Virus record (IMG/VR): IMGVR_UViG_3300047678_000345
Location: 1 to 33,710 of that record
Source of the DNA: a virus
Direction: 5' to 3' (one strand)
Length of the DNA: 33,710 nt
Shown here piece by piece: positions 9,601 to 31,100 of the stretch. Every line of letters begins with the position of its first letter. Within the stretch, counting starts at the first letter, position 1. The position numbers and the translations under genes were made by a program. Under the pieces are notes generated by a model. The model saw only the letters and a program-made list of their open reading frames with translations. It made no database searches and was not told the origin of the DNA.

Positions 9601-9648
9601 CATTGATATTAATAATTTAATTTTTTATATTTTCAAAAAACATTACAA

Positions 9649-12193: not shown

Positions 12194-12225
12194 AAAGCTC
12201 CATTGTATGGAGCTTTTGTTTTTTT
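12194..12225 (+). terminator. Rho-independent terminator ending the portal operon
   Basis: A 9-bp perfect stem, AAAGCTCCA (12194-12202) with TGGAGCTTT (12208-12216), 5-base loop, then TGTTTTTTT. It follows the small gene after the portal and overlaps the -33 element of the next promoter. Confidence 0.8.
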
Positions 12226-12246
12226 AGATAACTTTCAGTATATTTG
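12215..12246 (+). promoter_or_regulatory. Host-type (Bacteroidota sigma-A) promoter of the polymerase operon
   Basis: TTTG at 12215-12218 and TATATTTG at 12239-12246 are separated by 20 bases, an exact match to the Bacteroidota housekeeping consensus TTTG-N19-21-TAnnTTTG. Transcription would begin near 12253, just ahead of the ATG at 12266. This decides the polymerase start, because the in-frame ATG at 12203 lies upstream of the promoter. It differs from the TATTTATT signals of the virion genes and suggests early or middle expression by host RNA polymerase. Confidence 0.7.
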
Positions 12247-12265
12247 CAGTCAATCGTTTCTAAAA

Positions 12266-15200
12266 ATGAATCAAGCCTGTAATCAAAAAGATTGTAATTG
12301 CGGTAAACAGCATATCTATAAAGATGAGTTTACAAATATAGCTAATGTTAATTTACATAAAGCCATAGACAAGTTTGAAGAAAAAAAGGATGATTTAAAA
12401 AAGATTATCCAAGAAGAAGATAGAAGAAAAAGGCCTATGGTTCATCTTCATCTTCACACATTTCACTCTATTCTTGATGGGTGTGGTAGTGTTGATAATT
12501 ATGTAAAACTCGCCAGAGAATACAATCATCCTGCAATGGCTGTTACAGATCACGGAACTCTCTCTGGAACATTTGAAATGTTTAAAAAGTGCAAGGCTGC
12601 AGGCATTAAAAGTATTATGGGCATGGAAGCTTATGTGAATAATAACATGGGCCAATTTGAAGAGAAAAAATTTGAAGGAGGAAATACACACCAATCAATA
12701 TTCGTAATGAATAAGGAAGGGTTTGTTAACATCAACAAGCTAGCATACAAATCATATGATGAAGGTTTTTATAAGTGTGGTAGAATTAAAACAGATTGGC
12801 TATTTGAACATAAAAATGGCCTGTTTATAACAACTTCTTGTGCGGTGAGTTACATGTCCACTCTTGTACGTGAAGGTAAGGAGAGTGAGGCTGAAGAATA
12901 TTTAAAGGGGTTAATGCGTGAGTTTGGAGATAATATGGCAGCCGAACTACAGTTTAATGAATTTGATGGTCAGAAAATTTATAATACTTGGTTATTAAAA
13001 ATGATTAAGAAATATAGTTTAATGCCTATATTAACAAATGATGTCCACTATGCATTTAAAGAAGACGCTGAATTACAAGATACTTTGATAGCGATCAACC
13101 AAAAATCAAAACTAGGAGAATCATTCAAATTAACAACAAGAAATTTATATTATTCAAACGTTGATGATTTTCATAGATTTAATAAAGAATTTGGTTTTAA
13201 TTATCCTGAAAAATTTGTTGATCTTTGTTTGGAGAACACTTTAAAAGTTGCTGATAAATTGAATTTTGAGTTTGATATGAAAACTGAAAAGTTTCCAAAA
13301 TACGAACCAACAACAGAAGTATTAGATTATTTTAAAACAGATAGCACAAAAGAGATTATTACAAAACTTGCCTTCGGAAAACTCAAACAAAAAATAGCCA
13401 AATACAAAGAGAATAAAATTGTAATTATAACTCCTGAAAAAGAAAAAGAATATTATGATAGATTAAAATATGAACTAGATGTAATTGAAGAAAAAAATAC
13501 ATTAGATTATTTCTTGGTTTATTGGGAGCTTATTAGAGATTACAGACAGAAAGGATATTCTATTGGGCCTGCTAGAGGTTCTGCTGGAGGATGTTTGTTG
13601 TCATGGTGTTTAGAAATTACAGATATTGATCCTATCAGATTTGATTTGTATTTTGAACGTTTCTTAAACCCAACAAGAAAAGGTTTACCCGATATTGACG
13701 TTGACTTCATGACAGGAACCGACAATATTACAAATGATTTTCTTGAAAAGAAATACGGTAAAGAAAGAGTGTTGAGTGTTTCCACTTTCTTAACATTCAA
13801 CGAAAAAATGTGTTTGAAAGATGTTGTAAGGGCACATTTTGGAGAAGATGAAACTGGGTTTGAATCAGATGTGCATGCTGTAACTCAAGAAATGCCTAAT
13901 TGGCTAAAAGTAGAATATTCTCTTAAACATTGGTTTGAAACATGGCCTAACGACCCTGCTTGTAGCGAGAGAGTTAAAGGATGGTTAACCAACCCAAGCA
14001 ACCAAAAAATATTAGCACAAACATTAAAACTTCAAGGTCAAATTCGTGGCATAGGGCAACATGCGGCAGGTATTGTAATAACTCCTGGACCATGTTGGGA
14101 ATACATCCCCACAAACATAATAGGCTCAAACAAATCAATTGTTACAGCTTTTCAAGAAGCCGATAAGAGTGGCAAGGATTTATCTGAGTTGAACATATTA
14201 AAGCTAGATAGATTAAAACTTGAAACTTTAAATGTAATTGAAGATGCGATAAAAATAATAAAAGAGAAGAAAGGTATTGATGTAAGAGATGCAGTAAAAA
14301 ACGTCAACATCAATGATCCTAATTTATTTGCAGAACTTAGAATTGGAATGAATCATGGTATATTTCAGTTTGAAAGTGGTGGAATGAATGCTTTAATTCA
14401 AGGAATGGGTACAGAATCATTTTCAGAATTAACAGCTGCGAATGCTCTTTATAGGCCTGGTCCTATGGGAATTGGCGCTCATGAAGAATATATTACGAAC
14501 AAATTTAATCCTGAAAATATTAAATACGTTCACCCTGCCTTAGAGACAATATTAAAAGATACTAATGGGGTATTAATTTATCAAGAACAGCTTATGTTTT
14601 TAGCAAATAAAGTTGGAGGGATGAGTCTTGGTGAAGGAGACATGCTTAGAAGATATATGGATAAAGCGAGTGGAGCTATTGCTAAAAAATCTTTAGGCGA
14701 AGAACTATCAATAAAAGAACAAGATAACTATAAGGAGTTTGAAAAATATTGGAATAAGTTTTTGGATGGTGCGTCTAAGAATGGATATAGAATTGAAGAG
14801 GTTGATATCATTAAGGATTGGGTTATAAAATATTTAGGATATTCATTTAATAAATCACACTCTACTGCATATGCATATTTGGCTATGCAAACATTATTTT
14901 TAAAACATTATTATCCAACAGAATTTTATACAGCACTTCTTAATCACCCAAAAGATAACGGAAAGAAAGAAAAAGTTCAAGCATGGATAGCTGCGGCGAT
15001 TGGATCAGCAATGTCAAAAGGAATTACAATTTCATCCCCTTCTAGAAAATCTGGATGGGATTGGACAATGACAGGAGATAAGGAAATATCAATGGGCTTC
15101 TCAGGTATAAATGGTCTTGGGGATATTGCTTATGCAGAATTAATGACTCTTTTAAAACAAAGAGAAAAAACATTTGAAACAATAAGTGTGTCTGAATTTT

Positions 15201-15799
15201 TTGATTTACCTTTTTCAAAGTTCAATAAGAAATCTTTTGAATCTTGTGTTAAAGCAGGAGTTTTTGATGCTTGGTCAGAATCAAGAGATTATCTTTTATC
15301 ACTTAAAGAGAAGAAAAAAAAGAAGTTTGTTGATGTCCATCAAATTTCATTGTTTGATATGGGCTCTAAAGAGTTTGATTTAAAAACAGATGATATAGGG
15401 CAATTTGAAAAAACAACTGAAGGTAGAAAAAGATTTGATTTTATTGAGGTTTGTAATTTTGATCTAGAAAAAATTCAGTTCATGCTTAAAGTTAAAACCG
15501 AAATAAACAAGAAGGCTACAAGACCAATAGAAAATATTATAAACTTTGAAGAGGCTGGGTGGTACTTCTTTGTGCTTGAAGATTTTAAAATGCAAATGTC
15601 TAAAAATAACAAAGAGTATCTTGTTATGAGAGTTGGTGATGGCATAAGTAATATGAGCCTTAGAGCATTCAGTCCATTTGCAAAAAAAATATTCCCTGAG
15701 TTGCAGCCAAACGGAGTTTACGTTGCTAGGTTTGAAAGAAACGAGGGAGGATTTTTAAATTTTGCTAGAAATACACAATTTAAGAAAGTTGAAATATGA
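12266..15799 (+). CDS. dnaE: DNA polymerase III alpha subunit (DnaE-type, C family)
   Basis: Replicative polymerase of bacterial type, 1177 residues from the ATG chosen by the promoter (E. coli DnaE has 1160). The PHP domain begins near residue 60 (HLHLHTFHSILDG) with AVTDHGTLSG following. The palm shows GPARGSAGG, PDIDVDF (residues 475-481; D478 and D480 correspond to E. coli D401 and D403) and ILKLDRLKLETL, whose D648 corresponds to D555. GIFQFESGGM, ALYRPGPMG and the finger segment GEGDMLRRYMDKASG are also present. QISLF at 1026-1030 matches the beta-clamp binding consensus, and an OB-like region follows. There is no inserted exonuclease, so it is DnaE-like rather than PolC. The stop overlaps the next start (ATGA). 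T4 itself uses a family B polymerase, so this is a notable replacement. Confidence 0.93.
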   Translation: MNQACNQKDCNCGKQHIYKDEFTNIANVNLHKAIDKFEEKKDDLKKIIQEEDRRKRPMVHLHLHTFHSILDGCGSVDNYVKLAREYNHPAMAVTDHGTLSGTFEMFKKCKAAGIKSIMGMEAYVNNNMGQFEEKKFEGGNTHQSIFVMNKEGFVNINKLAYKSYDEGFYKCGRIKTDWLFEHKNGLFITTSCAVSYMSTLVREGKESEAEEYLKGLMREFGDNMAAELQFNEFDGQKIYNTWLLKMIKKYSLMPILTNDVHYAFKEDAELQDTLIAINQKSKLGESFKLTTRNLYYSNVDDFHRFNKEFGFNYPEKFVDLCLENTLKVADKLNFEFDMKTEKFPKYEPTTEVLDYFKTDSTKEIITKLAFGKLKQKIAKYKENKIVIITPEKEKEYYDRLKYELDVIEEKNTLDYFLVYWELIRDYRQKGYSIGPARGSAGGCLLSWCLEITDIDPIRFDLYFERFLNPTRKGLPDIDVDFMTGTDNITNDFLEKKYGKERVLSVSTFLTFNEKMCLKDVVRAHFGEDETGFESDVHAVTQEMPNWLKVEYSLKHWFETWPNDPACSERVKGWLTNPSNQKILAQTLKLQGQIRGIGQHAAGIVITPGPCWEYIPTNIIGSNKSIVTAFQEADKSGKDLSELNILKLDRLKLETLNVIEDAIKIIKEKKGIDVRDAVKNVNINDPNLFAELRIGMNHGIFQFESGGMNALIQGMGTESFSELTAANALYRPGPMGIGAHEEYITNKFNPENIKYVHPALETILKDTNGVLIYQEQLMFLANKVGGMSLGEGDMLRRYMDKASGAIAKKSLGEELSIKEQDNYKEFEKYWNKFLDGASKNGYRIEEVDIIKDWVIKYLGYSFNKSHSTAYAYLAMQTLFLKHYYPTEFYTALLNHPKDNGKKEKVQAWIAAAIGSAMSKGITISSPSRKSGWDWTMTGDKEISMGFSGINGLGDIAYAELMTLLKQREKTFETISVSEFFDLPFSKFNKKSFESCVKAGVFDAWSESRDYLLSLKEKKKKKFVDVHQISLFDMGSKEFDLKTDDIGQFEKTTEGRKRFDFIEVCNFDLEKIQFMLKVKTEINKKATRPIENIINFEEAGWYFFVLEDFKMQMSKNNKEYLVMRVGDGISNMSLRAFSPFAKKIFPELQPNGVYVARFERNEGGFLNFARNTQFKKVEI

Positions 15800-16179
15800 C
15801 AGAAGAACAAATTTTAGAAGGCAATAAGTTAATCGCTGAATTTATGGGTTGGGAATTGGTTAATATAAATGACGAACCTGAAGATGAAGATTTTGATTGC
15901 TGGGTTTTTAGAAATAAAATAACAGGTCAAAGTGATTCTGGAATAGATGCACAAATTTATAATAAAAATTCTACACTTCCATTTCATGCAGATTGGAATT
16001 TATTAATGACTGCCGTTGAAAAGTGTGTTTCCGAAATACAAGGCATGGGTTATGATGCGAGAGGTACTTGGTTACCTGAACATGGATATGTTAGTAATGT
16101 TTATTTACTTAAAATACATACTCCAAAAGAAATTGTTTGGCAGGAAGTTATAAAACATATAAATCGTTATAAAAAATGA
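15796..16179 (+). CDS. Small protein, possibly phage ABA-sandwich type
   Basis: A 127-residue acidic protein translated from an ATGA overlap with the polymerase gene and sharing another ATGA overlap with the RNase H gene after it. The segment LPFHADWNLLMTAVEKCVSE, together with an N-terminal ELIAEFMGW-like stretch (LIAEFMGWELVNI), recalls the small 'ABA sandwich' proteins common in phages, whose function is unknown. Translational coupling with two replication enzymes suggests a role in nucleic-acid metabolism, but nothing in the sequence shows a catalytic site. Confidence 0.65.
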   Translation: MTEEQILEGNKLIAEFMGWELVNINDEPEDEDFDCWVFRNKITGQSDSGIDAQIYNKNSTLPFHADWNLLMTAVEKCVSEIQGMGYDARGTWLPEHGYVSNVYLLKIHTPKEIVWQEVIKHINRYKK

Positions 16180-16634
16180 CATATCAAATATATACCGATG
16201 GATCCTCAAACCAAGGATCAGAATTAATAGGAAATAGAAGTGGCGGATGGGCCTTTTTAATTGTTGGACAAGACATGCATACATTGTGTGAGCATGCGGA
16301 ATCAGAAATTAATTTCACAAACAACCAAAGCGAATTAGCAGCTGTTATCAACAGCATAAAAAAATTTAAAGAATTAGCTCTGAGCGGTACTGCAGAGATT
16401 TATTCTGATAGTGCTTATGTAGTAAATGCATTTGTTGAAGGGTGGATTGATAATTGGGTTAAAACTGGATGGTTAAATTCAATGGGACAACCTGTAGCGA
16501 ATAAAGAAATGTGGTTAGAATTGCTAAAGCTGACAAAAGAAAACAGTGTCCGTATTTTAAAAATAAAACGCAGGTCAAATGTTTTCAGTAAACGTGTGGA
16601 TGAATTAGCTAGAGCTAAGATGAGATCTTCATAA
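16176..16634 (+). CDS. rnhA: Ribonuclease HI
   Basis: A 152-residue RNase HI, which removes RNA from RNA-DNA hybrids such as Okazaki primers. The four acidic catalytic residues are visible: D8 in YTDGSS, E53 in NNQSELAAV, D78 in YSDSAYVV and D142 in VDELAR, matching E. coli D10, E48, D70 and D134. The WVKTGWLNSMGQPVANKEMW stretch is the substrate-handle region. The flexible loop that in E. coli carries GH-x-GH with H124 is replaced by KRRSNVFSKR, so the assisting histidine is missing. It is the last gene of the polymerase operon, starts by ATGA overlap, and its 3' end overlaps the convergent minus-strand gene by 20 bases. Confidence 0.9.
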   Translation: MTYQIYTDGSSNQGSELIGNRSGGWAFLIVGQDMHTLCEHAESEINFTNNQSELAAVINSIKKFKELALSGTAEIYSDSAYVVNAFVEGWIDNWVKTGWLNSMGQPVANKEMWLELLKLTKENSVRILKIKRRSNVFSKRVDELARAKMRSS

Positions 16635-17031
16635 AAACCTTAAGCAACACAAGAGCTGTTGTAAATAAGAAAGATACAACGCCAACAATTGTATAAACCT
16701 TAGTTTTAAACTTCTTGTAGTCTTCTATTTGTTCTTCGTATTTTTTAAGAGACTCTTTGATAGAATCAATAGATATTTTTATGTCTTTATTATTTATATA
16801 ATAAGATTTTATATTTTTAAGATCGTCAATATTAACAGCCTCTTCAACAGAGCCTTTCCATTCTTTTAAATCGTTAATGGCGTGTTTCATGCCAGAAATT
16901 TTGGTCAATTCAACATTAAGACCGTTTATTTCTTCTGCAAGAGAATCACAGTTTTCCCCAAGTTTTTCTAGTTCTTTAAGGATGTATTTAGACCACTCAG
17001 TCCAACCATTATTATTTTCTAATTCTGACAT
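16615..17031 (-). CDS. Coiled-coil protein with C-terminal membrane anchor
   Basis: A 138-residue protein with a long helical, heptad-rich domain (about 1-110) and one hydrophobic segment near the C-terminus (VYTIVGVVSFLFTTALVLLK, about 112-131), followed by a short basic tail. This layout, coiled coil then C-terminal anchor, is that of tail-anchored proteins and of small phage lysis-accessory proteins of the XhlA type; the link to XhlA is a weak guess. Its start overlaps the end of the upstream minus-strand gene by 20 bases in another frame, so the two are cotranslated. Its 3' end overlaps RNase HI. The leader motif at 17223-17230 suggests late expression. Confidence 0.65.
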   Translation of the reverse strand: MSELENNNGWTEWSKYILKELEKLGENCDSLAEEINGLNVELTKISGMKHAINDLKEWKGSVEEAVNIDDLKNIKSYYINNKDIKISIDSIKESLKKYEEQIEDYKKFKTKVYTIVGVVSFLFTTALVLLKVFMKISS

Positions 17032-17203
17032 CAGATTTTATTTTTTCAAATATATCTTCTTTTTTTTGCTCTTCTAGTATGATTTCAGCATTTTTAACGT
17101 TACTGATAATTTGTTTGAATTTTCTATTTATACTTTGAAGCTTGTCTACTATTTCTATAGAATGCTTATCTAAGTAAAAATTTACCACAGATTGATTTTG
17201 CAT
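17012..17203 (-). CDS. Small coiled-coil protein, hypothetical
   Basis: A 63-residue charged protein (MQNQSVVNFYLDKHSIEIVD...) predicted to be mostly helical. It is not recognised. It is first in a two-gene minus-strand operon and overlaps the next gene by 20 bases. TATTTATT on the minus strand lies 19 bases before its ATG, which supports it as a real gene despite its size. It may partner the membrane-anchored coiled-coil protein encoded downstream. Confidence 0.6.
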   Translation of the reverse strand: MQNQSVVNFYLDKHSIEIVDKLQSINRKFKQIISNVKNAEIILEEQKKEDIFEKIKSDVRIRK

Positions 17204-17222
17204 AAATTTGTTTTTTAGTTTT

Positions 17223-17230
17223 AATAAATA
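17223..17230 (-). promoter_or_regulatory. TATTTATT motif of the minus-strand operon
   Basis: On the minus strand TATTTATT ends 19 bases before the ATG at 17203. Only a 4-bp inverted repeat (TAGT/ACTA) surrounds it. The rest of the 206-base divergent gap 17204-17409 holds the plus-strand motif at 17383-17390 and a small 7-bp hairpin (TATAATG-TCCTT-CATTATA, near 17306-17324) of unknown role. Confidence 0.45.
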
Positions 17231-17382
17231 CTATCATTTCTCAATACTAGTTTATCTGTAGAATTTCTTAAGATAATAACAATTTTTATTACCAAAAGCC
17301 AATATAATGTCCTTCATTATATACATAGGGTTAAAAGTTTTTAATTCCTTGGTTTTCACACCAAAAACCACAAAATATTGCC

Positions 17383-17390
17383 TATTTATT
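17383..17390 (+). promoter_or_regulatory. TATTTATT motif before the 17410 gene
   Basis: CCTATTTATT ends 19 bases before the ATG at 17410. The motif lies in a 14-base palindrome (ATTTATTAATAAAT, 17384-17397). It heads the plus-strand set of probable internal virion proteins. Confidence 0.45.
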
Positions 17391-17409
17391 AATAAATTAT
17401 CTCATATAT

Positions 17410-18207
17410 ATGAAAAAAGATAAAACTTTACAAGAGGAGTTAAATAGAATGAAACAACTTGCTGGCATTTTAAATGAAGCTGTTGGGCAACCTGCTCCAG
17501 GTGGTCAACAAAATCCAAATGCCCCAGCACAACAAAACACGCAACAAGCGGATCCTGCTAAAACAGCACAAAACATCCAAACCACAATGAATCAAGCTAT
17601 GGATCAACTTGTAAAAGATTTACCCAATATTCTTAAAAATTTTACAGCAACAGCTGGAGATAAAGATAGTGAGCTAGATATAACAGGGCAACAACAGACT
17701 AAACCGCAACCACAAGCTCAATCGCAACCACAAGCGCAGGCTCAACCACAATCTATTAAAGAGTCAGACAACCAAAAAGAATTAATGTTTGATGAAGATA
17801 AATATAAATCTAATTTACATAATGACGTTAATGAAGGAGGAGTAATTGGTTTAATTGCTTCACTACCAGTAATAGCAAAAGTTGGAGGTAATCTTATTAA
17901 TAAGCTTGGTAAAAAAGTAAACTCTCAAAATCTGCAATCTTTTGGTAATGCAACAGCGGCGGCAGGAGAAAAATTACATCATGTTTACATAGGCACAATA
18001 GAAAAAATAATTTCTCCTTTCATGAAAAATGCAGATCCTAAAACAAAACATATGGCAGCTGAGGCTGTATTTATGACTCTTGTAGGAGTGTTGTTTGCAC
18101 AGGGTTTAACTGACCCAACTCTTTTAACTCATGTAAAAGGAGCAGAATTAGCAAATTATGCTAAAAGTTTATTACCAGCGTCTTTAAGTCTTGCTGGATT
18201 ATCATAA
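17410..18207 (+). CDS. Probable internal virion protein with capsid-targeting-like N-terminus
   Basis: A 265-residue protein. The first 23 residues form a charged helix ending in ILNE before Ala (L21-N22-E23, then A24). In T4, proteins packaged into the head carry short N-terminal targeting peptides cut by the gp21 protease after [LI]-x-E, so this looks like such a peptide. Residues 25-120 are a Gln/Pro/Ala-rich low-complexity linker. Residues about 133-265 form a compact hydrophobic helical domain (GGVIGLIASLPVIAKVGGNL; HMAAEAVFMTLVGVLFAQGL), possibly membrane-active. It starts a run of three genes with similar N-termini and is followed 6 bases later by a nuclease-fold gene. An ejected protein that acts on the host membrane is conceivable; the function is unknown. 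Confidence 0.6.
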   Translation: MKKDKTLQEELNRMKQLAGILNEAVGQPAPGGQQNPNAPAQQNTQQADPAKTAQNIQTTMNQAMDQLVKDLPNILKNFTATAGDKDSELDITGQQQTKPQPQAQSQPQAQAQPQSIKESDNQKELMFDEDKYKSNLHNDVNEGGVIGLIASLPVIAKVGGNLINKLGKKVNSQNLQSFGNATAAAGEKLHHVYIGTIEKIISPFMKNADPKTKHMAAEAVFMTLVGVLFAQGLTDPTLLTHVKGAELANYAKSLLPASLSLAGLS

Positions 18208-18213
18208 TAAATT

Positions 18214-18669
18214 ATGAGAAAAATAAATTTTAAAAAAATGGCAAATAGAATGCTTTTGAAAGAAAAAAAGCAAGCTAGAAAACCATTTGGGTCTGTTGAT
18301 ATTGTTAAACAAAACGCTAATAAGATGTCAAAAAAAATGACAGCACCTGAAAAAGCGCTTGATAAAATGTTGAAGGAGCTTAAAGTAAATTATGAGCCTC
18401 AAAAAATTGTTGGACCAAAAATATATGATTTTTATATTATAGATTTTAATTTATTGATTGAAGTTGATGGAGACTATTGGCATGCAAACCCAGCAATATA
18501 TTTAGAAGGTGATCATAATAAAACACAAAAAAGAAATGTGAAGAACGATAGATTTAAGGATATTTTAGCAAGCGGAAGAGGATTTGGTTTAATCAGAATT
18601 TGGGAAAGCGACCTAAAGAACGATTATGCAGGTGTTAAAAAAATGTTGAAAAATAAACTAGGTATATGA
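18214..18669 (+). CDS. PD-(D/E)xK-fold nuclease (Vsr/DUF559-like)
   Basis: A 151-residue protein whose core (about 45-150) follows the Vsr/DUF559 restriction-endonuclease-like pattern: E46 in APEKALDKML, D72 in PKIYDFYIIDF, the active-site strand LLIEVDGDYWH with E83 and D85, then NDRFKDILASGRGFGLIRIW with the typical final strand. Such enzymes nick or cut DNA and occur as mismatch-repair, restriction or homing nucleases. The basic N-terminal 45 residues contain MLLKE (L15-K16-E17), a possible prohead-protease site, although Lys rather than Ala or Gly follows. It is translationally linked to both neighbours, overlapping the next gene by ATGA. It may be a homing enzyme or a nuclease carried in the virion; the first is the conservative reading. 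Confidence 0.7.
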   Translation: MRKINFKKMANRMLLKEKKQARKPFGSVDIVKQNANKMSKKMTAPEKALDKMLKELKVNYEPQKIVGPKIYDFYIIDFNLLIEVDGDYWHANPAIYLEGDHNKTQKRNVKNDRFKDILASGRGFGLIRIWESDLKNDYAGVKKMLKNKLGI

Positions 18670-19100
18670 AAAATAGATTAAGAAGTATCATAAGAAAAGA
18701 AATGAATCTTATATTTGAGGCTATGGATGGCGGTGTCTTAGATGATGCTATGGCCAATATAGAGGATCAAATAGATACTAATGTAAAAAATCTAGAAAAT
18801 ATCAAAAAGACCACCGATCAAGACATAAAAAATAAAGAAAATGTTGTTAAAGGCAAGAAACAACTAAGAAGTCAATTGCCAGCACAAAATCCTGATAGAC
18901 AAGGACTTGAAAAAGAAGTTCCTGCTAAAGAAAAAGAAATTGCAGCCGAAAAGAAACAAGCTGAAGATGTAGAAAAAGCAAAAACTGACTTTGAAAAAAC
19001 TAAGGCTGAATTACAGAAAAAACAAGCCGAACTTACTAATGCTAAACCTGAAGGTGAAAAAGGCACATCTGTATTAAAATCTTTGCCATCAGCAATTTAA
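18666..19100 (+). CDS. Coiled-coil protein with [LI]xE N-terminal signal
   Basis: A 144-residue, highly charged protein. It begins MKNRLRSIIRKEMNLIFE then Ala, a basic amphipathic helix ending in I16-F17-E18, again like a T4-type capsid-targeting peptide with its cleavage site. The rest is a long Lys/Glu/Gln coiled coil (for example DFEKTKAELQKKQAELTNAK), similar in style to scaffold or prohead-core proteins. It overlaps the nuclease gene by 4 bases. A scaffold or internal head protein is the best guess from these traits and the gene context. No family is recognised. Confidence 0.6.
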   Translation: MKNRLRSIIRKEMNLIFEAMDGGVLDDAMANIEDQIDTNVKNLENIKKTTDQDIKNKENVVKGKKQLRSQLPAQNPDRQGLEKEVPAKEKEIAAEKKQAEDVEKAKTDFEKTKAELQKKQAELTNAKPEGEKGTSVLKSLPSAI

Positions 19101-19107
19101 AAAAATC

Positions 19108-19119
19108 ATTTGTTTTAAA
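19108..19119 (+). repeat. Direct repeat left of the HNH gene
   Basis: ATTTGTTTTAAA occurs here and again at 19986-19997, bracketing the HNH endonuclease gene 878 bases apart. Both copies are followed by an ATATTTAT leader motif. This may mark the borders of an insertion, although a 12-base AT-rich repeat is modest evidence. Confidence 0.5.
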
Positions 19120-19128
19120 TTTTTTTCA

Positions 19129-19145
19129 CATATTTATAAAATATG
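19129..19145 (+). promoter_or_regulatory. Leader signal of the HNH gene, hairpin including the start codon
   Basis: CATATTT (19129-19135) pairs perfectly with AAATATG (19139-19145) over a 3-base loop, and the second arm includes the ATG at 19143. TATTTATA lies at 19131-19138. If transcribed, this hairpin would hide the start codon. Confidence 0.45.
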
Positions 19146-19979
19146 GAAAAGAAAATATGCACAAAATGTAAGCTAGAAAAAGAAATTTCTAGCTTTTATT
19201 TTTTAAAGAAAGAAAATAAGCACAAAACAACATGTGCTGAATGCGATAAGAGCTATGTAAAAAAATACAGAGATTCAAATAAATCAGAAATAAAAAACAA
19301 AAACAAAGAATATGCATCTAAGCATAAAGATAAATATGCTGAATACTCTAGAAAATATAGAATAAAAAATTTAGAAAAAATACAATCTTTTAGAGAGAAA
19401 AATAAAATAAAAAACAACGAAGCTGTTAAAAAGTATAATTCTTTAAACAAAGAAAAGGTAGAAGAATATAAAAAAATGTATAGAGAAAAAAACAAAGAAA
19501 AGGCAAAAATTTATAGAGAAAACAATAAAGAAAAAGCTGTTGAATATAGAATAAAAAACAGAGACAGAATTAAGATGTTGCAGAAACAAAGCAGAATCAA
19601 AAACAAAGATAAAATAAACGAAAAGATTAAAATAAAAAGAGATACCAATCCTTTGTTTAAGTTAGATTTAAATATAAGAAATTTAATAAAAAACTCATTT
19701 AAAAAAACAAATCATAGAAAAGCTAAAAAAACAGTCCAAATATTAGGCTGTACTGTTAAGTATTTTAAAGCATATATAGAAGAACGTTTTGAATCCTGGA
19801 TGAATTGGGGTAATTATGGTAAATATGACCCAAATGGGCCAAAAACTTGGAATATAGATCATATCATACCAATATATGTAGCTAAAACAGAAGAGGATAT
19901 TATAAGGCTTAACCATTACACAAACCTAAGACCTCTTTGTTCTAAGGAAAATTTAGATAAAAGTAACAAATTAATATAA
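19143..19979 (+). CDS. HNH homing-type endonuclease
   Basis: A 278-residue endonuclease. A zinc knuckle lies at the N-terminus (C6, C9, C31, C34). The middle (about 45-175) is a very long Lys/Glu/Asn-rich helical linker of imperfect repeats (YRIKN, YREKN, KEKAK). The catalytic HNH domain is at the C-terminus: NIDHIIPIYVA, HYTNLRPLCSKENLDKSNK. This architecture is typical of free-standing phage homing endonucleases, which cut intron- or gene-free alleles and spread themselves. It stands alone between a coiled-coil gene and baseplate genes and is bracketed by the 12-base direct repeats at 19108 and 19986, consistent with insertion. It carries its own leader motif. Confidence 0.88.
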   Translation: MEKKICTKCKLEKEISSFYFLKKENKHKTTCAECDKSYVKKYRDSNKSEIKNKNKEYASKHKDKYAEYSRKYRIKNLEKIQSFREKNKIKNNEAVKKYNSLNKEKVEEYKKMYREKNKEKAKIYRENNKEKAVEYRIKNRDRIKMLQKQSRIKNKDKINEKIKIKRDTNPLFKLDLNIRNLIKNSFKKTNHRKAKKTVQILGCTVKYFKAYIEERFESWMNWGNYGKYDPNGPKTWNIDHIIPIYVAKTEEDIIRLNHYTNLRPLCSKENLDKSNKLI

Positions 19980-19985
19980 AAACTG

Positions 19986-19997
19986 ATTTGTTTTAAA
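19986..19997 (+). repeat. Direct repeat right of the HNH gene
   Basis: Second copy of ATTTGTTTTAAA (first at 19108-19119), 7 bases after the HNH stop codon. See the left copy. Confidence 0.5.
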
Positions 19998-20011
19998 AAA
20001 TTTTAATATTA

Positions 20012-20038
20012 TATTTATCTAAACACCAAAAAAGATAA
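20012..20038 (+). promoter_or_regulatory. Leader signal of the baseplate gene pair
   Basis: TATTTATC at 20012-20019. TTATCT (20015-20020) pairs with AGATAA (20033-20038) over a 12-base loop, ending 2 bases before the ATG at 20041. Here the last motif base is C and the partner arm carries the matching G. Confidence 0.4.
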
Positions 20039-20040
20039 TT

Positions 20041-20916
20041 ATGAGTGAAAATGAAAAAATATCAATAGGAGGCGCTAATAAAACGGCAAATCCAATTCAG
20101 TCGCATTTAGATGCTGAAACAAAAGCTAAGGCTCAAGAGTATGGCGTACCTGAAAATCTTGTAAATAATGATGAGTTTAAGGTTCCGACAGAAAGAGTTG
20201 AACTACCATCAAAAGGATTGTTTTATCCAAACAAAAAATCTTTTGTAGATATTAAATATATGACTGCAGAAGAAGATAATATTCTTTATTCTTCAGATCT
20301 TATTAAGAGCGGAAAAGTATTGGATGTACTTTTAGAGTCTGTTATCAAAGATAAAGATTTGAGACCTGATGACATGCTTTCTGGAGACAGAAACTTTGTT
20401 CTTATTGAAGTAAGAAGAACGGGTCTTGGCGATGAGTATAAACCAGGAAATATAAGATGTGAATCTTGTAATCAAGATTTTTCTCCAACAGTTGATTTAA
20501 GTAAATTAAAATCTAGACCTTTGGAATTAGAACCTGACGCTGATGGTCTTTATGAAGTTGTTCTCCCTATGACAAAAATTACAATTAAATTCAGATTGCT
20601 TAGAGGATCAGACGAAAAAAGATTAAGTAAGTCATTAGAGAAAAAAGCTGGTAACGTCAAAGTTTCAAGACTAATTACTGAAAGATATTTACTACAGATT
20701 ATGGCTGTTAATGACAATACTGATAAGACTTATATCAATAAATTTATTTCTGCAATGCCAACAAAAGACTCTTTATTCTTTAGAGAATATAACAGACAAG
20801 TTGAGCCTGGGTTAGATTTAAATTATGAATTTGAATGTAGTCATTGTGGACACTTACAAGAAAGAGATGTTCCTATTAATTCAAAACTATTCTATCCTGA
20901 CGTTGATCAAGAATAA
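20041..20916 (+). CDS. Baseplate protein, T4 gp26-like, zinc ribbon
   Basis: A 291-residue protein. After a disordered N-terminus it has VELPSKGLFYPNKKS (about 53-67), the LPSKG-x-x-Y signature of the T4 baseplate-hub family that includes gp26. Two CxxC pairs, C140/C143 (RCESCNQDF) and C266/C269 (ECSHCGHLQ), can bind one zinc. The segment between them is beta-rich (YEVVLPMTKITIKFRLLRGS). The next gene encodes a paralogue with the same signature and CxxC pairs and overlaps this stop by 1 base (TAATG), so the two are translated together and may form a complex during hub assembly. Family naming is from memory of the motif. Confidence 0.7.
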   Translation: MSENEKISIGGANKTANPIQSHLDAETKAKAQEYGVPENLVNNDEFKVPTERVELPSKGLFYPNKKSFVDIKYMTAEEDNILYSSDLIKSGKVLDVLLESVIKDKDLRPDDMLSGDRNFVLIEVRRTGLGDEYKPGNIRCESCNQDFSPTVDLSKLKSRPLELEPDADGLYEVVLPMTKITIKFRLLRGSDEKRLSKSLEKKAGNVKVSRLITERYLLQIMAVNDNTDKTYINKFISAMPTKDSLFFREYNRQVEPGLDLNYEFECSHCGHLQERDVPINSKLFYPDVDQE

Positions 20917-21938
20917 TGGAGAGTGAAGAAAATAAAAACGAACTCAGAAAAAGTATAGATGAATTAAAAGTAGATTTTGAGCAGTTTAAAGATAAAATAG
21001 ACGGCTTTCAAAAAATAGTAAAATCAGAAAATAAAAAATTAGAAAAGCCTTTTGAAATGCTTAACCTGCCATCAAAAGGCTTTTTTTATGAAAATAAAAC
21101 TAGCTTTCTTTTACTAGGGTATCTTACTTATTTCGAAGAGAATTTGCTAACAAGTGAAATGCTTGTTGAGAATGGTATTGCCTATGAAATCGCTCTAGGA
21201 AATCTAATATACAACGACGATATTAAAATAGACGAACTCCTAACAGGAGATGTTCAAGCTATGTCTCTAGCTTTAAGATCGTTTTCTTATGGAAATAATA
21301 TCGAACTAGATTTAAACTGTAATCACTGTAATAAAGAATCAAAAGCTTCAATACCGCTTACAAGTTTTCAAATGAAAGAAGTTCAAAGAATTCCTGATGA
21401 AAATGGAGAGATACATTTAGAACTTGGAAAATTGAAAATACCTGTAAAGATTAAGCCCATCACATTTAAGCAGGAGTTAGAATATTATAAAAAAGAGGAA
21501 AAATTGCCTCTTGAAAACATAGCTTTATCAGTAAGAGAATTTAATGGAGAAAGGGATCCTAAAAAAATACTTAATAGTATTAGAACATTAAGACTCCTTG
21601 AATCAAGAGAGTTAAGAAATGAAATTTCAAAGAACACTCCTGGAGTTGATACAAAATATGGTCATGTTTGTGAATTTTGCGATAAAGTTACGGATTATGA
21701 TTTTGGTGGTAATACAATGGGCCTATTAAAACTACCTGCTTCTTACAGAAACAGCGTATTAGAGGAGATATTCTTATTGGTATACTACGGAAAGTCAATA
21801 ACAATAGACGACGCTAAGAGGATGCCTGTGACTGAGAGAAGGTGGTTTATCAATAGGATAAGCGAAGAAGTTGAGAAACAAAGAGAAGCGGAGAAAAAAG
21901 AGATGTCAAAGGCAAAAAGCAAGTCAAAGCACAAGTAA
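20916..21938 (+). CDS. Baseplate hub assembly protein, gp26/gp51-like paralogue
   Basis: A 340-residue protein. The N-terminal 45 residues are a coiled coil (ELRKSIDELKVDFEQFKDKI). Then follows MLNLPSKGFFYENKTSF with the LPSKG signature, and CxxC pairs C135/C138 (NCNHCNKES) and C252/C255 (VCEFCDKVT). The C-terminal 70 residues (EEIFLLVYYGKSITIDDAKR; MPVTERRWFINRISEE) look like the short helical domain of T4-type hub assembly factors such as gp51, followed by a Lys/Ser tail. It is an apparent fusion of a gp26-like domain with that helical domain. Start overlaps the upstream stop by 1 base. Role in baseplate hub assembly is inferred. Confidence 0.65.
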   Translation: MESEENKNELRKSIDELKVDFEQFKDKIDGFQKIVKSENKKLEKPFEMLNLPSKGFFYENKTSFLLLGYLTYFEENLLTSEMLVENGIAYEIALGNLIYNDDIKIDELLTGDVQAMSLALRSFSYGNNIELDLNCNHCNKESKASIPLTSFQMKEVQRIPDENGEIHLELGKLKIPVKIKPITFKQELEYYKKEEKLPLENIALSVREFNGERDPKKILNSIRTLRLLESRELRNEISKNTPGVDTKYGHVCEFCDKVTDYDFGGNTMGLLKLPASYRNSVLEEIFLLVYYGKSITIDDAKRMPVTERRWFINRISEEVEKQREAEKKEMSKAKSKSKHK

Positions 21939-21951
21939 ATTAATAAAAAAT

Positions 21952-21975
21952 AACCTATTTATACTAAAATAGGTT
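21952..21975 (+). promoter_or_regulatory. Leader hairpin of the 21981 gene
   Basis: A perfect 9-bp stem, AACCTATTT (21952-21960) with AAATAGGTT (21967-21975), and a 6-base loop ATACTA. It encloses TATTTATA (21956-21963) and ends 5 bases before the ATG at 21981. No T-run follows, so it is not a terminator. It is one of the two strongest examples of the leader series. Confidence 0.55.
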
Positions 21976-21980
21976 TCATA

Positions 21981-23990
21981 ATGAACCATACAGACTTTTT
22001 CCAAGAATATCAAAATAGAAAGAAGACTTCTGAAGATCTTTTTAAAGGCCTACAGTCCAAGTTCGTATTAAACGAAGGTGAGATTGATGAGGCTCTGTTT
22101 GGGCTTGTTAAAGGCGCTAAGGATAAGGAAAAGGACCTTTCAGATTACTATCATAAAATTACAACCAACGCACCAAACTGGCAATCTTATAAGCTTAATT
22201 TAGGCGGAGGCAAATTTGTTGAAATAGGTAAGACTACTGATGAAGAAAAAAAACAGGCATGGAATGAGCTTTTGAAACAGGCGAGTGCTGATAAATTTAA
22301 AGGTGGCATTGCTAATGAAAAAGGAATTGTTGTATATGATTCTAAAGTAAAGTCGCAGACACAACAACCACAACAACCACAACAAACAGGCGGAACCCAA
22401 CCCTCAAACTATCAAATAGAAAGAAAAGGAAAAACTTATTATTTTGGTAAAAACCAAAACGAAAGATATACAGCAGAAGTTGTATCTCCAGGAGATGCGG
22501 CTATGATGAATTATGATTGGCAACACAGTGAGTTAAAATATTTATTTGAGCCACCACTTAAATTAATAGGCAAGCAAATGGCTTTTGACTTAAAACAAGG
22601 AATTGTAATGAATTTTGTTGGAAAATGGGAAGGTCCATTTGTTGGAAATACTTTTGCTGGAATTTATGATGGCGAATATTTTAAAGGTAATTATAAATGG
22701 GACAATACCGATTTTAATCCTAGTAAGAAAACTGTAAAAGAAAAAGCAATTGCTTTTGTTGATGGCACGTTTTCAGACAGAACAAATACTGGAATCTTAG
22801 GATCTCCCAACATAGTGTCTACAGTAGATAATTTTCATTTAATACAAATACCAGTTGGTTATTCTATTGAAGTTTTGACAAACAAACAACTTAGACATAC
22901 AATCACAACTACAAAAAGACTAGACGGAGTAAATTCAAATTTTACTTATTATGTTTATTTAGGATATGAAGCTGGAGAACAAGAACCATTGCCTGTAACT
23001 TTATCTTGGGAACAAATAAGAATGGATTTTGACAACTATCAAATAAATTTAAATATAAAAAATATTCCTGGACTTTTTAAATTACAATCAGATGAGAATA
23101 TAATTGAATTAAAAATAGTGAAAGCTGGAACCCCTCCTGTCTTTACTAAAAAAGAAGCTTTTGATGATGCAAAAACATATTCAGAAGATTTACCTTTGTT
23201 ATCTGGTTTGAAATCTATTAGCCCTAGTGTTAAAAAATCTGAAGTTGATTTTGATTTGAGTGATGATGCTGATTTTGAAAATTTTTTAAAATCAAAAAAT
23301 TATATAAATTCTCCTCAGTTTTTAAAAGATTTAGAAACTATAGGAAAAGGAATAGATTATGGTAAAGTAAAAAATATATCTAAATATCCTGATTTGGTTA
23401 AAATATTTACTCCAGATGTTTTATCTGAAGGTTTTAGTGTAGATGATGATTATGGTAGTGGATATGGAGATTATGAATCTGTATATCAAACTAATGATCC
23501 TGCTAAGACAGAAACATTTAAAAAACTTAAACAAAATTTAGAAGCTCAGTATAAAGATTATTTTCAAAAATATGGACAATACCCAGATGAATTTAAAGAA
23601 CAAATGAAAATGATTTCTAAAGCTTATGGCCCAAAGAAAAAAAAGAAAATTGTTTCAAACCCGTCAAATAATACCTCTTTAGCACAACCACAAGTTCAAA
23701 AAACATCTGAAGATGCAGCTCTTAATAGATTAGATAATTTTGTAAAATATTTTGTAGAAAAAATTCAGTCTAAAACAAAAGACATTGGGAAAACACAAGA
23801 AATAAAAAATTTCATTTTTAATGCAATTAAACAAAGATTGCAACAATATAAACAAACAGCTAAAAAAACAGTTGAACCTGTAAATATTGCTAATGTTAAC
23901 CCTTCATCTAAACAACAAATTGGCAAGCCTTTTACAGCCGAATCTATAATAAGGCTTAAGATAAGGGGTATTTTAAAGAAAATGTTGTAA
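21981..23990 (+). CDS. Large probable virion protein with [LI]xE N-terminal signal
   Basis: A 669-residue protein of unknown function. The first 32 residues form a charged helix ending FVLNE before Gly (L30-N31-E32, then G33), a possible capsid-targeting peptide with prohead-protease site. A Gln/Pro linker (QQPQQPQQT) lies near residue 135. A central beta-rich region (about 195-270) with GKWEGPFVGNTFAGIYDGEY and FKGNYKW has MORN-like spacing of Gly and aromatic residues. The C-terminal part is helical and basic, ending AESIIRLKIRGILKKML. It stands alone between a leader hairpin (21952) and another (24000). A head-internal or ejected protein is plausible; enzymatic motifs are not seen. Confidence 0.6.
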   Translation: MNHTDFFQEYQNRKKTSEDLFKGLQSKFVLNEGEIDEALFGLVKGAKDKEKDLSDYYHKITTNAPNWQSYKLNLGGGKFVEIGKTTDEEKKQAWNELLKQASADKFKGGIANEKGIVVYDSKVKSQTQQPQQPQQTGGTQPSNYQIERKGKTYYFGKNQNERYTAEVVSPGDAAMMNYDWQHSELKYLFEPPLKLIGKQMAFDLKQGIVMNFVGKWEGPFVGNTFAGIYDGEYFKGNYKWDNTDFNPSKKTVKEKAIAFVDGTFSDRTNTGILGSPNIVSTVDNFHLIQIPVGYSIEVLTNKQLRHTITTTKRLDGVNSNFTYYVYLGYEAGEQEPLPVTLSWEQIRMDFDNYQINLNIKNIPGLFKLQSDENIIELKIVKAGTPPVFTKKEAFDDAKTYSEDLPLLSGLKSISPSVKKSEVDFDLSDDADFENFLKSKNYINSPQFLKDLETIGKGIDYGKVKNISKYPDLVKIFTPDVLSEGFSVDDDYGSGYGDYESVYQTNDPAKTETFKKLKQNLEAQYKDYFQKYGQYPDEFKEQMKMISKAYGPKKKKKIVSNPSNNTSLAQPQVQKTSEDAALNRLDNFVKYFVEKIQSKTKDIGKTQEIKNFIFNAIKQRLQQYKQTAKKTVEPVNIANVNPSSKQQIGKPFTAESIIRLKIRGILKKML

Positions 23991-27600: not shown

Positions 27601-28061
27601 CAGTTAATGTTGGAAATTTAGCAGCTTTAGGATCTGCTTTAGGTAGTATGGCCCCTGGATTGATGAGTTTTGGTTTATCGGCTATGTTGTTCGCTAATCC
27701 AATTGCATTATTTGGAATTTGGGCTATGACTTCTGCGTTGTCTGGGTTAGTTGCAGTAATGACTCCATTAGCATCTGCTTTGACCCTAGGATCAACTTCT
27801 TTAAATAGTTTTGCCTCAGGTCTAGATAGATTGGCGACTGCCGCTAATGCGCTTTCTGATGATAAATTAGAGAGGTTACAAAAAATATCTGAAGCTATGG
27901 CTTCTGCTTCTGCTTCTGGAAATGTTGCCAATGTAATGACTGCGGTTGCAGGTGGAGCAGGTGGTGGTAGTGCTGAACCTAGAAAGATTGAAATTGACAT
28001 AAAACTAAACGGTAGAGATGTACAATACCAAATAGTAAAAGATACTGCTGTCCACAAATAA
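24645..28061 (+). CDS. Tail tape measure protein
   Basis: At 1138 residues this is the protein that sets tail length and is later ejected; T4 gp29 has 590, so the tail may be longer. Residues 1-240 and about 550-600 are charged coiled coil (KKNDEKTLEEQNKRNQSFEE). From about 600 to 1080 the protein is strongly hydrophobic with Gly and Ala, as usual in tape measures. Within this part a block starts GFKSLAEGLGAMG, GFTAIAEGLAAFG and GFKAIATGIGFMG at residues 711, 768 and 825, an exact 57-residue period. The C-terminus ends in a small soluble domain (KIEIDIKLNGRDVQYQIV). It is a single-gene unit between terminators at 24582 and 28087. The strand opposite its hydrophobic part is open by chance. Confidence 0.88.
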   Translation: MADNKKQYEEAMKNLDSLLKKQKALNQSLEGMKTSWNAISTEVFKMGGAEWFKKVPKSAEDIQKSVDKISDMRKGLEDVGNEFDKALNQDKNLQSLQSNIKDTFKKWEVHITDNQLTGKKASDFRAQAQEDFIKQLRVDYKEMGAFSDAELKNLVKQFNTTDDIAMAVSKLPSAHKKVINSLAEEKDLLNQSVDKADEMIQKIREEQSELKKLDKDVFSISAGLSKFSTILMKEGLGALKVSDQELSTVQRNTGIAMKDNAAAFGDLTGRVSQFGMSVKDAGEMMAGMSDELNTTNFSVLSKATEDFASIAGATGAASKEITTISGELMRMGKSSGEVKDYFEGADKMARSFGISSKKAIDGISRNLTKMRTMGFVGGEKSLAKMVVTAEKLNMNVDEIFDVAKKARNIEGAMEMASELQLAGGSFANINPMDLLAAARKGPAELQKILTTMGKDVGRFNKETGEYEFDPVDIERLQIVADATGQSLDSITKGIQKSGLDKEKIEPFAGMMDGLDEADKALAQSSLGDMMKFNEKNGKFEIDADNDLAKKMGITSLDQIGEKEIKAMLEKKKNDEKTLEEQNKRNQSFEESLKNFWGALESIFTVFEPVLNILTGALQGITKVVGKLPGWGKWIVGSLVVAFALFGTSVGAFITQGIGKFASSIKDFGSGIMKFIKSPIATMKGAFTKKTSPTDTGTDGAPAGPKAGVGEGFKSLAEGLGAMGTTPGVLKGILAVALSGPAFLLFVPALPGLMVMALIGTVADPIKKGFTAIAEGLAAFGNTGGIFKGIGALALAAIPLAIFGPLSLLLLPLALIGVLAPLIEAGFKAIATGIGFMGSNLGNIIKGSLAILIVGAAMIPFVLAATYMSDIDWMSVLKGVGVMALVLVGLIGVGIMASTVGWLILLGAGLLAAAGLAMMVAAAGLSSMGEAFAMLSEIDGSSLSSLAGVMFLLGPGLLAFSFAMLALSFVNFDSLKQLGTSLEQLGTVNVGNLAALGSALGSMAPGLMSFGLSAMLFANPIALFGIWAMTSALSGLVAVMTPLASALTLGSTSLNSFASGLDRLATAANALSDDKLERLQKISEAMASASASGNVANVMTAVAGGAGGGSAEPRKIEIDIKLNGRDVQYQIVKDTAVHK

Positions 28062-28086
28062 TCAAAAAATGACATTATTATCAACC

Positions 28087-28117
28087 AAACCTCTTTAATT
28101 TAAGGAGGTTTTTTTTT
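28087..28117 (+). terminator. Rho-independent terminator after the tape measure gene
   Basis: AAACCTC (28087-28093) pairs with GAGGTTT (28105-28111); inner AT and GU pairs can extend the stem. A T-run follows to 28117. It ends the tape measure transcript. Confidence 0.85.
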
Positions 28118-28136
28118 ATAATATTTTTTTAAACGA

Positions 28137-28160
28137 TTATTTATAAATAAATGTAAATAG
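28137..28160 (+). promoter_or_regulatory. Leader signal of the 22-residue-repeat baseplate gene
   Basis: TATTTATA at 28138-28145 lies in a 14-base palindrome TTATTTATAAATAA (28137-28150). TTATTTA (28137-28143) can also pair with TAAATAG (28154-28160), one G-U wobble, ending 3 bases before the ATG at 28164. AT-only, so individually weak. Confidence 0.4.
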
Positions 28161-28163
28161 AAT

Positions 28164-31100
28164 ATGTCGACCTTTTTTGACGATAATGACGAACAAGATA
28201 AGCAAGAACAAAAACTACTTGAGTTCTATCAGGTATATTCTGCCGATGTTAGAAGAAGACTTTTAAGTAAAAATGTCCCCACAATCAACAATGTTTATGA
28301 TGTATTATATCCTAATACAAAAGAAGCTTTGTTGTCAAAAAACGTATCAAACAACATAACAATTGATAGCTCAGCTGAATCTATTAGAAATGCGCTTCTT
28401 GCAAAAATTATTGAAGACAATATCAATTTAGAAAAATTTAGTGAGAACTTTAGAAATTCATTATTATCTAGAAATAACTTATCACAATCAGCTACTGATT
28501 TACAACAACAATCAGAAAATGTAAGAAAAGGATTATTATCAAAAAACAACACAAGTCAAAAAGAAAATATCGATGATATTGCAGATTCTAAGAGACATGA
28601 GTTGCTTTCTAAAAATAAAGAATCATTAAATTTTCAAAATGATATTGAAAAAAACAATGAGTCTTTTAGAGAAAACAATTTACATAAAAATGTAGAAAGC
28701 AAGTCTGATATAGAAAAAGATTCACCAGATTTTAGAAAAAATCTTATAAGTAAAAATAAACCTACTGAAGGAGATTTATTAACAGACTCAAACGAGTTTA
28801 GATCAGACGAATTAGCATTAAACACGCCAAACACATCTGATTTAGAAAAAGATTCAGAACAAGCTAGAGCTAATGTTTTATCAAGTAATGTTCCAAGCAC
28901 TTCTGATTTATTAAATGATTCAGAGCAAGCGAGAACTAATGTATTGGCAAGTAATGCACCAAATAAATCTGATTTAGAAAAGGATTCAGAACAAACTAGA
29001 AAGAATATTTTATCAAGTAATGTTCCAAGCACTTCTGATTTATTGAGCGATTCAGAACAAGCGAGAACTAATGTTTTATCAAGTAATGTTCCAACCACTT
29101 CTGATTTATTAAAAGATTCAGAACAAGCTAGAACTAATGTTTTATCAAGTAATGTATTAAGTAAGTCTGATTTAGAAAAAGATTCTGAACAAACTAGAGT
29201 TGATGATTTGTCAAAAAATAAGCCATCTGCTTCTGATTTAGAAAAAGACTCTGAACAATCTAGGATTAACACATTATCAAAAAATACACCTTCTACTTCT
29301 GATTTATTAAATGATTCAGATCACGCTAGAAAAAATGTTTTGTCCAGTAATGTGCCAACTACTTCTGATTTAGAGAAAGATTCTGAAAAAACTAGAAAAA
29401 ATGTTTTGGCTAGTAACACACCAAGCACTTCTGACTTAGAAAAAGATTCAGAACAAGCTAGAACTAATGTTTTATCAAGTAATGTTCCAACCACTTCTGA
29501 TTTATTGAGTGATTCTGAGCAAGCAAGAAAAGGTGTATTGGCAAGTAATAAACCAAACACTTCTGATTTATTGAGTGATTCTGATAATACTAGAAAAGAT
29601 GTTTTATCTTTAAACGTACCTAGCATTTCTGATTTACTAACTTTATCTGAAGATCCAAGAACAGGATTGCTTGCCGCAAACAAACCAAATCCTTCTGATT
29701 TACTAGCTTTATCTGAAGACCCAAGAACAGGATTACTTTCAGCAAACGTTCCAAGTCCAACTGATCTATTGGTTTTATCTCAAGATCCAAGAACAAATTT
29801 ACTTTCAGCAAACGTTCCAAATCCTTCTGATTTATTAACATTGTCTGTGGACCCAAGAACAAATTTGCTTTCAGCAAACGTGCCAGACGCTGGAGATTTA
29901 TTAAATGATTCTAATCCTTATTATCAAAATAATTTATCAGCTAATGTTCCAGGTAAATATAATATAGATAATTTTATTAATAATGGTGGTGGTTCAGATA
30001 GTGCAACTCAAGAGTTGAAAAATTTAGAATCTAAAAATATCCCAACAAATAATACTATAGATAAATTTATTAATAATGTTGGCATAAGAGATACTGCTGC
30101 TGGAGAATTAAAAAGTTTAACTTCTAAAAATACCCCAACAGATAATACTATAGATAAATTTATTAATATAGGTGGTGGCAAAGATAGTGCTTCAGGAGAA
30201 TTAAAAGGTTTAATTAGTAAAAACGATTATGCTATTGGTAGTGGTCATTATGATGGTAATAATCAAAAGCCAGGAAATAATATAGATATATTTACAGACA
30301 ATCAAGGCTCTAAAAACAGTGCGAATGCAACACTTAGTTCATTGGTTGGAAAAAATGATTACCCTCTTGGCAATGGCAATTATGATGGTAGCAATCCAAA
30401 ACCAGGAAGTAATATAGATAGTTTTATTAATAGTGCTGGTGGTAGAGGTGGTGCGAAAGATGAACGTAATAGATTAATGGCGATGAATCCTAATGCTGAT
30501 CTTGGCGTTACGTTTACAGGATTAGGGACAGCAACATTCTTGGGTGTGTCAAAAGTGTTGACACAAGGTTTGATTATAAGAAGTTATTTAAAAACAAAAA
30601 ACAGGCCTAATAGAAAATTGACTTTAGATAATGTTGATAAAGGCCTTAGAGAACAAAATGTAATCCACAGTACAACACGTTCTTGGAGAAATGCTTATTC
30701 TATTGATGGGACGGGGTTAAACGAATATACACAAGGCCGTGATAGTTTTGGTTTGGTAGAAAAATTGTATTTAGCAGGAACTGAGTATAAAGATATGGTT
30801 ACTCAAACTGGAGCTAAAGTTACAGATGTAATTGCAAAGCAAATGGAAAAAAATAATCTTGTGGGTGCTAACGGACAAATATTGCAATCTAATTTTGGTA
30901 TATCATCTCTTGATACTAGAAATATTGAATTAGGTGGTGGTTATTTTGGGGTTAATTCATCTTCGGATTTTACAAAAGAAGGAAGACAAGGTGGAGGTTT
31001 TATTTCTAATACAAAGGCTGGCAAAGTTTCTTACGCACAACAATTTTCAGAAGGTAACGTAACGTTTAATGCGAGATTATATAATTTATCTAAAAATTTA

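Follow-up and report, generated by a model that had tools for sequence, protein, structure and literature searches.

An N-terminal leader resembling the scaffold C-terminus as a predicted head-targeting signal in T4-related phages

The window analysed in this study is the complete 33,710-base IMG/VR record IMGVR_UViG_3300047678_000345, a fragment of a T4-related phage. The protein encoded from position 17410 begins with a short peptide, designated here the design-1 leader, which was also found at the N-termini of unrelated proteins of other phages, and its motif is identical to that at the C-terminus of the scaffold protein in relatives. The leader is probably a T4-like capsid-targeting propeptide in which a mimic of the C-terminal tail of the scaffold is followed by a terminal gp21-type cleavage site. 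We also lean towards a portable form of head loading that a large group of T4-related phages from aquatic habitats would use and in which an N-terminal copy of the scaffold tail plus a protease site would get any protein packed and injected. Phage head cargo is usually found by proteomics alone, and the targeting signal of T4 is too short to search for. The design-1 signal can be searched for and names the molecule that it would imitate, which makes testable how cargo is selected and what these phages inject; it also points to a short address by which proteins of choice could be loaded into capsids. If head loading is portable in this way, the injected effectors of each phage could be listed directly by reading the tag; counter-defence enzymes, for instance an Acb1-like phosphodiesterase, would be among them.

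The design-1 leader and its recurrence

A preliminary description of the window had read N-terminal peptides ending in [LI]xE as probable prohead-protease signals in four proteins. All four were located: LNE23/A24 in the 17410 gene, LKE17/K18 in the 18214 gene, IFE18/A19 in the 18666 gene, and LNE32/G33 in the 21981 gene (a slash marks the candidate cut). In the phage contigs compared, [LI]xE occurred within residues 6-35 of 827 of the 2,335 open reading frames (ORFs) of at least 120 amino acids (aa), or 35%, and within residues 60-89 of 686 of them. A check of all plus-strand window ORFs of at least 100 aa gave 8 positives among 23; the triplet is present there at a level not above chance. 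Since the triplet is so common in residues 6-35, the observation as first made does not exceed chance, [LI]xE by itself was rejected as a signal, and conservation must decide. A short N-terminal propeptide ending in a conserved [LI]xE site was found in the 17410 and 18666 proteins. The proposed T4-type targeting peptide cut by gp21 is well supported for 17410 and fairly supported for 18666. It is not supported for 18214, a nuclease whose site is unconserved, or for LNE32 of 21981, which is unconserved and lies among baseplate and tail genes.

The design-1 leader of the 17410 protein, MKKDKTLQEELNRMKQLAGILNE, covers residues 1-23 (positions 17410 to 17478, plus strand), with a cut predicted after Glu23 from the matrix score, the conservation of Glu23 and a helix model. 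Using a matrix built from the leaders of other phages only, this leader (RMKQLAGILNE/A) scored 36.4 bits, compared with a maximum of 6.4 for shuffled sequences. Relatives were collected via the T4-like portal protein gp20 (positions 9649 to 11916, plus strand; PF07230, 1.2e-73), giving 52 viral loci against which the window proteins were then searched. Glu23 was invariant in 11 of 11 homologues, the residue two positions before it was I or L in all of them, and a homologue in locus L223 bears a canonical leader. A low-confidence structure model placed a helix over residues 3-23. The whole product (265 aa, positions 17410 to 18207, plus strand) is predicted to be head cargo and, in alignment A2, consists of the leader, a Pro/Ala/Gln-rich linker and a conserved helical C-terminal domain, with a second conserved site, xNE/GG, at Glu142. 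No Pfam or PHROG family was assigned to it at 0.001, and its structure model, which was poor (mean predicted local distance difference test score, pLDDT, 58), had no PDB fold match at E<=0.001. Separately, inspection by eye of a 500-aa protein of locus L208 (8297-9799) showed an HExxH-like segment, then LAGLLTE as an internal leader near residue 302, followed by a domain resembling the C-terminus of the 17410 protein.

Viral contigs were scanned with a degenerate DNA pattern encoding R-M-[KQ]-x-L-A-G-[IL]-[IL]-x-E, which occurred in at least 120 stretches, and 80 of these loci were examined. They contained 94 design-1 matches, of which 83 started at ORF residue 31 or earlier, 2 were C-terminal and 6 lay outside ORFs; at most three tagged genes were seen per locus. 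Bacterial and archaeal genomes, a far larger collection, gave the pattern in 85 stretches, and it was N-terminal in 13 of the 80 examined. The 105 distinct tagged proteins yielded 104 bodies that fell into 89 clusters, 80 of them with a single member. It is apparent from these clusters that the same leader is carried by unrelated proteins. Two entries of the pattern and cluster counts, locus L175 (whose peptide RMKTFAGMFLE was probably matched by chance) and the 39-aa ORF L183, were not included in alignment A1. The leader itself is a short basic amphipathic helix, encoded by 85 distinct DNA words with four codons each for Ala and Gly. This synonymous variation indicates that the protein, not the DNA, is conserved. 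In the isolated Flavobacterium phage immuto, whose host is Flavobacterium sp. LMO8, the two proteins immuto35A_187 and immuto35A_42 start with MKKQILSEQF[RK]RMQ[KF]LAGIITE/S, and a tblastn search of the phage collection with a composite leader gave matches only in immuto records (4 of 50,697).

Most of the tagged bodies had no family: among 79 searched at 0.001 only three Pfam families were found, with one member each; the PHROG search gave only seven families, again with one member each, and PADLOC and NCBIfam gave weak single matches only. One protein with a design-1 leader (locus L206, 4251-4829) was similar to Acb1/2H phosphoesterases (PF23474, 29.1 bits, cut-off 27). It is a candidate injected enzyme against the cyclic-oligonucleotide-based anti-phage signalling system (CBASS), and the Acb1 match would suit an injected counter-defence function.

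The scaffold C-terminus and the predicted protease site

The head genes of the relatives are arranged in the order portal, core genes, Peptidase_S77 (S77) prohead protease, scaffold and capsid protein. The scaffold, encoded between S77 and gp23, ended in an R[MW]xxLAGI motif in 17 of 17 separate scaffold/capsid gene pairs (one of them, in G018, repeats part of G017) and also in locus L194. Examples of these tails are RMKQLAGIRKNEL, RMKQLAGIKNLNE, RMQKLAGIIKEN, RWQKLAGIIK (immuto) and RMKKLAGIVK (Microcystis phage Mel-JY01). With a matrix trained on cargo leaders only, the scaffold was outranked by no other C-terminus of the same genome record in 15 of 16 cases, and in 14 of 16 when a longer core was used. 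Ten of the loci used for training the leader matrix come from records that were rescanned; N-terminal matches in those records are not independent, whereas the C-terminal scaffold matches are. In nine genomes, the similarity of the scaffold tail to the leaders of its own genome was 0.721, compared with 0.626 after permutation, and only one of 5,000 permutations reached as high a value. The motif is common to the scaffold C-terminus and the tagged proteins, and for the latter we infer a location in the prohead. It was also C-terminal in a few proteins other than scaffolds. In G056, a single 946-aa ORF (27635-30475, minus strand; loci L426-L427) encodes both the scaffold and the major capsid protein, with the scaffold-tail motif at the junction; this is either a real fusion or an artefact of deletion or assembly.

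In 69 of 80 leaders, the residue following the Glu, which was left free in the search pattern, was one of S, G, N, A and T; the corresponding shares were 32% in the background and 38% for residues that follow an N-terminal [LI]xE of any kind. Such a preference for small residues is the pattern expected of a protease site. At P3, a position constrained by the search pattern, I was found 60 times, L 19 times and F once in the 80 leaders. Relatives do encode a gp21-like protease: an S77 prohead protease was detected in 7 of 31 portal relatives, mostly fragments, including G019, the portal of which is 87% identical to that of the window over residues 1-328. The 33.7-kb window record itself, on the other hand, contained no Peptidase_S77 protease. 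S77 was also present in 19 of the 50 leader-bearing records, and in eight of eight of those longer than 90 kb. In addition, the capsid proteins of the relatives had [LIV]xE at the column of Glu65 of T4 gp23, which we take to be the known gp21 site, in 17 of 17 cases. In T4, a 65-residue propeptide of gp23 is removed (PMC9026906; this and the other papers are cited from excerpts).

The design-2 leader and other genes of the window

The protein encoded from position 18666 (144 aa, positions 18666 to 19100, plus strand) is coiled-coil-like and is predicted to be head cargo or a core protein. Its leader, MKNRLRSIIRKEMNLIFE, designated design 2, covers residues 1-18 (positions 18666 to 18719, plus strand), with a predicted cut after Glu18 based on the conserved [LI][FI]E, which was kept as IFE, LFE or IIE in six of the six homologues listed. 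With the design-2 pattern (LRxIIRxE-type helices), a search of about 837,000 positions yielded 19 matches at N-termini, 2 at C-termini and 5 internally, compared with one N-terminal and three internal matches in five shuffles. Record G022 encodes four proteins with a design-2 N-terminus. The two designs distinguished in the preliminary description are thus real as recurrent N-terminal modules. Several proteins combine an N-terminal design 2 with a C-terminal design 1, and these dual proteins tie both designs to the same compartment. The design-2 leader (LRxIIRxE...[LI]xE) probably serves as another prohead signal, for which there is less evidence than for design 1. Neither the scaffolds nor the dual-tagged proteins matched a PHROG family. 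Three-gene clusters of small proteins with basic N-terminal helices were observed in G009 (9184-11347) and G020 (15923-17697; loci L063 and L072), the middle protein having a design-2-like N-terminus and a design-1-like C-terminus. A TDDGRxLL-type motif was common to the tiny proteins at 11422-11803 of L063 and 16148-16345 of L078.

The 18214 gene (positions 18214 to 18669, plus strand) encodes a DUF559/Vsr-like endonuclease (PF04480, 5.8e-9) and was not counted as tagged. It was rejected as cargo because LKE17 was kept only in a 95%-identical copy, other homologues lacked the site, and the protein is a nuclease. For the 669-aa protein encoded at positions 21981 to 23990 (plus strand), LNE32 was rejected as a cut site for lack of conservation. 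The next site, IDE37/ALFG, aligned with LNE/ALFG and LNE/AFFG in the two nearest full-length homologues and is the better candidate. The C-terminus of this protein (about 23937-23987) is a design-2-like helix, ESIIRLKIRGILKKML, that is also present in homologues; a tblastn search of the phage records with the protein gave no match. Two T4_baseplate (hub) proteins are encoded just upstream (positions 20041 to 21938, plus strand; PF12322, 2.6e-9 and 4.2e-9), so that the 21981 gene sits in a tail module.

A DNA similarity search of the phage records with the window gave no match. The large terminase subunit is represented in the window by two ORFs (7922-8245 and 8338-9600) and by a single 573-aa ORF in the relatives L003, L004, L005 and L007. 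Between the head and tail genes lies a 1,198-aa ORF (12203-15799) that, by eye, resembles the alpha subunit of bacterial DNA polymerase III. A long tandem repeat, with units of about 20-25 residues (LSSNVPTTSDLLxDSEQAR-like), makes up the N-terminal half of a 1,506-aa protein (28164-32684).

Proposed mechanism, alternatives and known systems

T4 internal proteins are described as reaching the core via a short N-terminal targeting sequence that gp21 cuts after L/I-x-E (PMC9026906, PMC5694885). In phage 80alpha, the C-terminal RIIK motif of the scaffold binds the capsid protein, and CpmB of the pirate SaPI1 uses the same motif (PMC5644958); a paper on phage D3 states as a general rule that scaffolds touch the inside of the capsid with their ends (PMC12749128). 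Based on these precedents, the design-1 leader was read as a mimic of the scaffold tail followed by a gp21 site. During head assembly, the C-terminal helix of the scaffold (R[MW]xxLAGI) would bind a partner inside the prohead; by analogy with other phages, this partner is most likely the major capsid protein, contacted on its inner face. Cargo with an N-terminal copy of the helix would be taken up at a site of the same kind. The gp21-like S77 protease would then cut after [LI]xE at the helix end, freeing the cargo within the head and removing the scaffold, and the freed cargo would exit with the DNA at the next infection.

Several observations weigh against this reading. In the nearest homologues of the 17410 protein the Glu is kept and the helix is variable (KMKxLxESRINE/A). 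In Microcystis phage Mel-JY01, which has the scaffold motif, a scan of about 188 of the 190 kb revealed no N-terminal leader that exceeded the threshold; the tag is therefore not universal where the scaffold motif occurs. The near records G009, G010, G019, G020 and G031 (at most 68 kb), in which the scaffold motif is likewise present, also showed no N-terminal design-1 leader above threshold. No protease was detected in 31 of the 50 leader-bearing records, all of them shorter than 80 kb, and the window record contains neither its own scaffold nor its own protease. Tagged genes cluster only slightly near the protease, 4 of 31 lying within three genes of it against 1.3 expected. Shared ancestry may contribute to the likeness of scaffold and leader within genomes, since the covariation test does not remove it. 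Finally, packaging, cleavage, ejection and the binding partner are what we infer, and the open-access literature searched yielded no proteomic study of immuto virions.

A tentative alternative, less probable than binding to the capsid protein, is that the partner bound by the motif is the S77 protease, the portal or the scaffold itself, in which case cargo would still enter the prohead. The motif adjoins the cleavage site in the cargo, and the protease gene has some tagged genes as neighbours; moreover, T4 internal proteins co-purify with gp22, so that binding to the core is documented there (PMC9026906). However, the C-terminal part of the scaffold is described as contacting the capsid protein in 80alpha, SaPI1, P22, HK97 and D3 (PMC12749128, PMC5644958). 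It is unlikely that the tagged proteins are short-lived assembly proteins of the prohead core that are destroyed on maturation instead of being ejected. The T4 core proteins gp22, gp67 and gp68 are likewise cut at [LI]xE (PMC9026906), the dual-tagged proteins G009 9577 and G066 80444 resemble core proteins, and the 17410 protein has its second conserved xNE/GG site; the 89 body clusters, however, are too varied for an assembly role, and one body is the Acb1/2H phosphoesterase-like enzyme (PF23474). A short basic amphipathic N-terminal helix could also be a signal unrelated to the head, such as one for membrane targeting or late-gene translation, but this is very improbable and already disfavoured, given that the same motif is C-terminal in scaffolds and a few other proteins, that the leader codons vary synonymously, and that small residues are strongly preferred after Glu. 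That the window peptides are chance N-terminal triplets, as the 35% base rate allows and as holds for 18214 and LNE32 of 21981, deserves hardly any credence as a general account, because it is refuted for 17410 by the conservation of Glu23, the recurrence across phages and the score of 36.4 against 6.4 bits, and does not fit 18666 well, with its conserved [LI][FI]E and the recurrence of design 2.

A scaffold-derived cargo leader was not found reported in the open-access literature searched, and the known systems each resemble the proposed targeting propeptide in part. Like the targeting sequence of T4 IPI, IPII, IPIII and Alt, the design-1 leader is a short N-terminal propeptide with an [LI]xE cleavage site, predicted in our case, on several cargo proteins per phage (PMC9026906, PMC5694885), and T4-like head genes and a gp21-family protease occur in the relatives. 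By eye, however, IPII and IPIII start with MKTYQEFIAEA, which has no likeness to RMxxLAGI, and whereas the signal described here copies the C-terminal tail of the scaffold, the end of T4 gp22 has no such motif. The N-terminus of gp22, MLKEQLIAEA, gives the impression of a vague resemblance to the T4 targeting sequence. In P1, the N-terminal 30 residues of DarB are enough to send a reporter to the capsid, but the Dar N-termini lack a consensus and there is no separate scaffold, according to the excerpts of that paper (PMC9024508). In the giant phage SPN3US, the prohead protease similarly removes N-terminal propeptides from ejected head proteins; however, several of these exceed 100 residues and, in the excerpts of the source, no counterpart of the gp22 scaffold is confirmed (PMC5694885). 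As with the 80alpha scaffold and SaPI1 CpmB (PMC5644958), the C-terminal motif of a scaffold recurs in a different protein, and in our case, too, the two would compete for or share one prohead site. In that system the motif is still at the C-terminus, and the single pirate scaffold that has it serves size control (PMC5644958), whereas here it is N-terminal on dozens of putative cargo proteins and is followed by a protease site.

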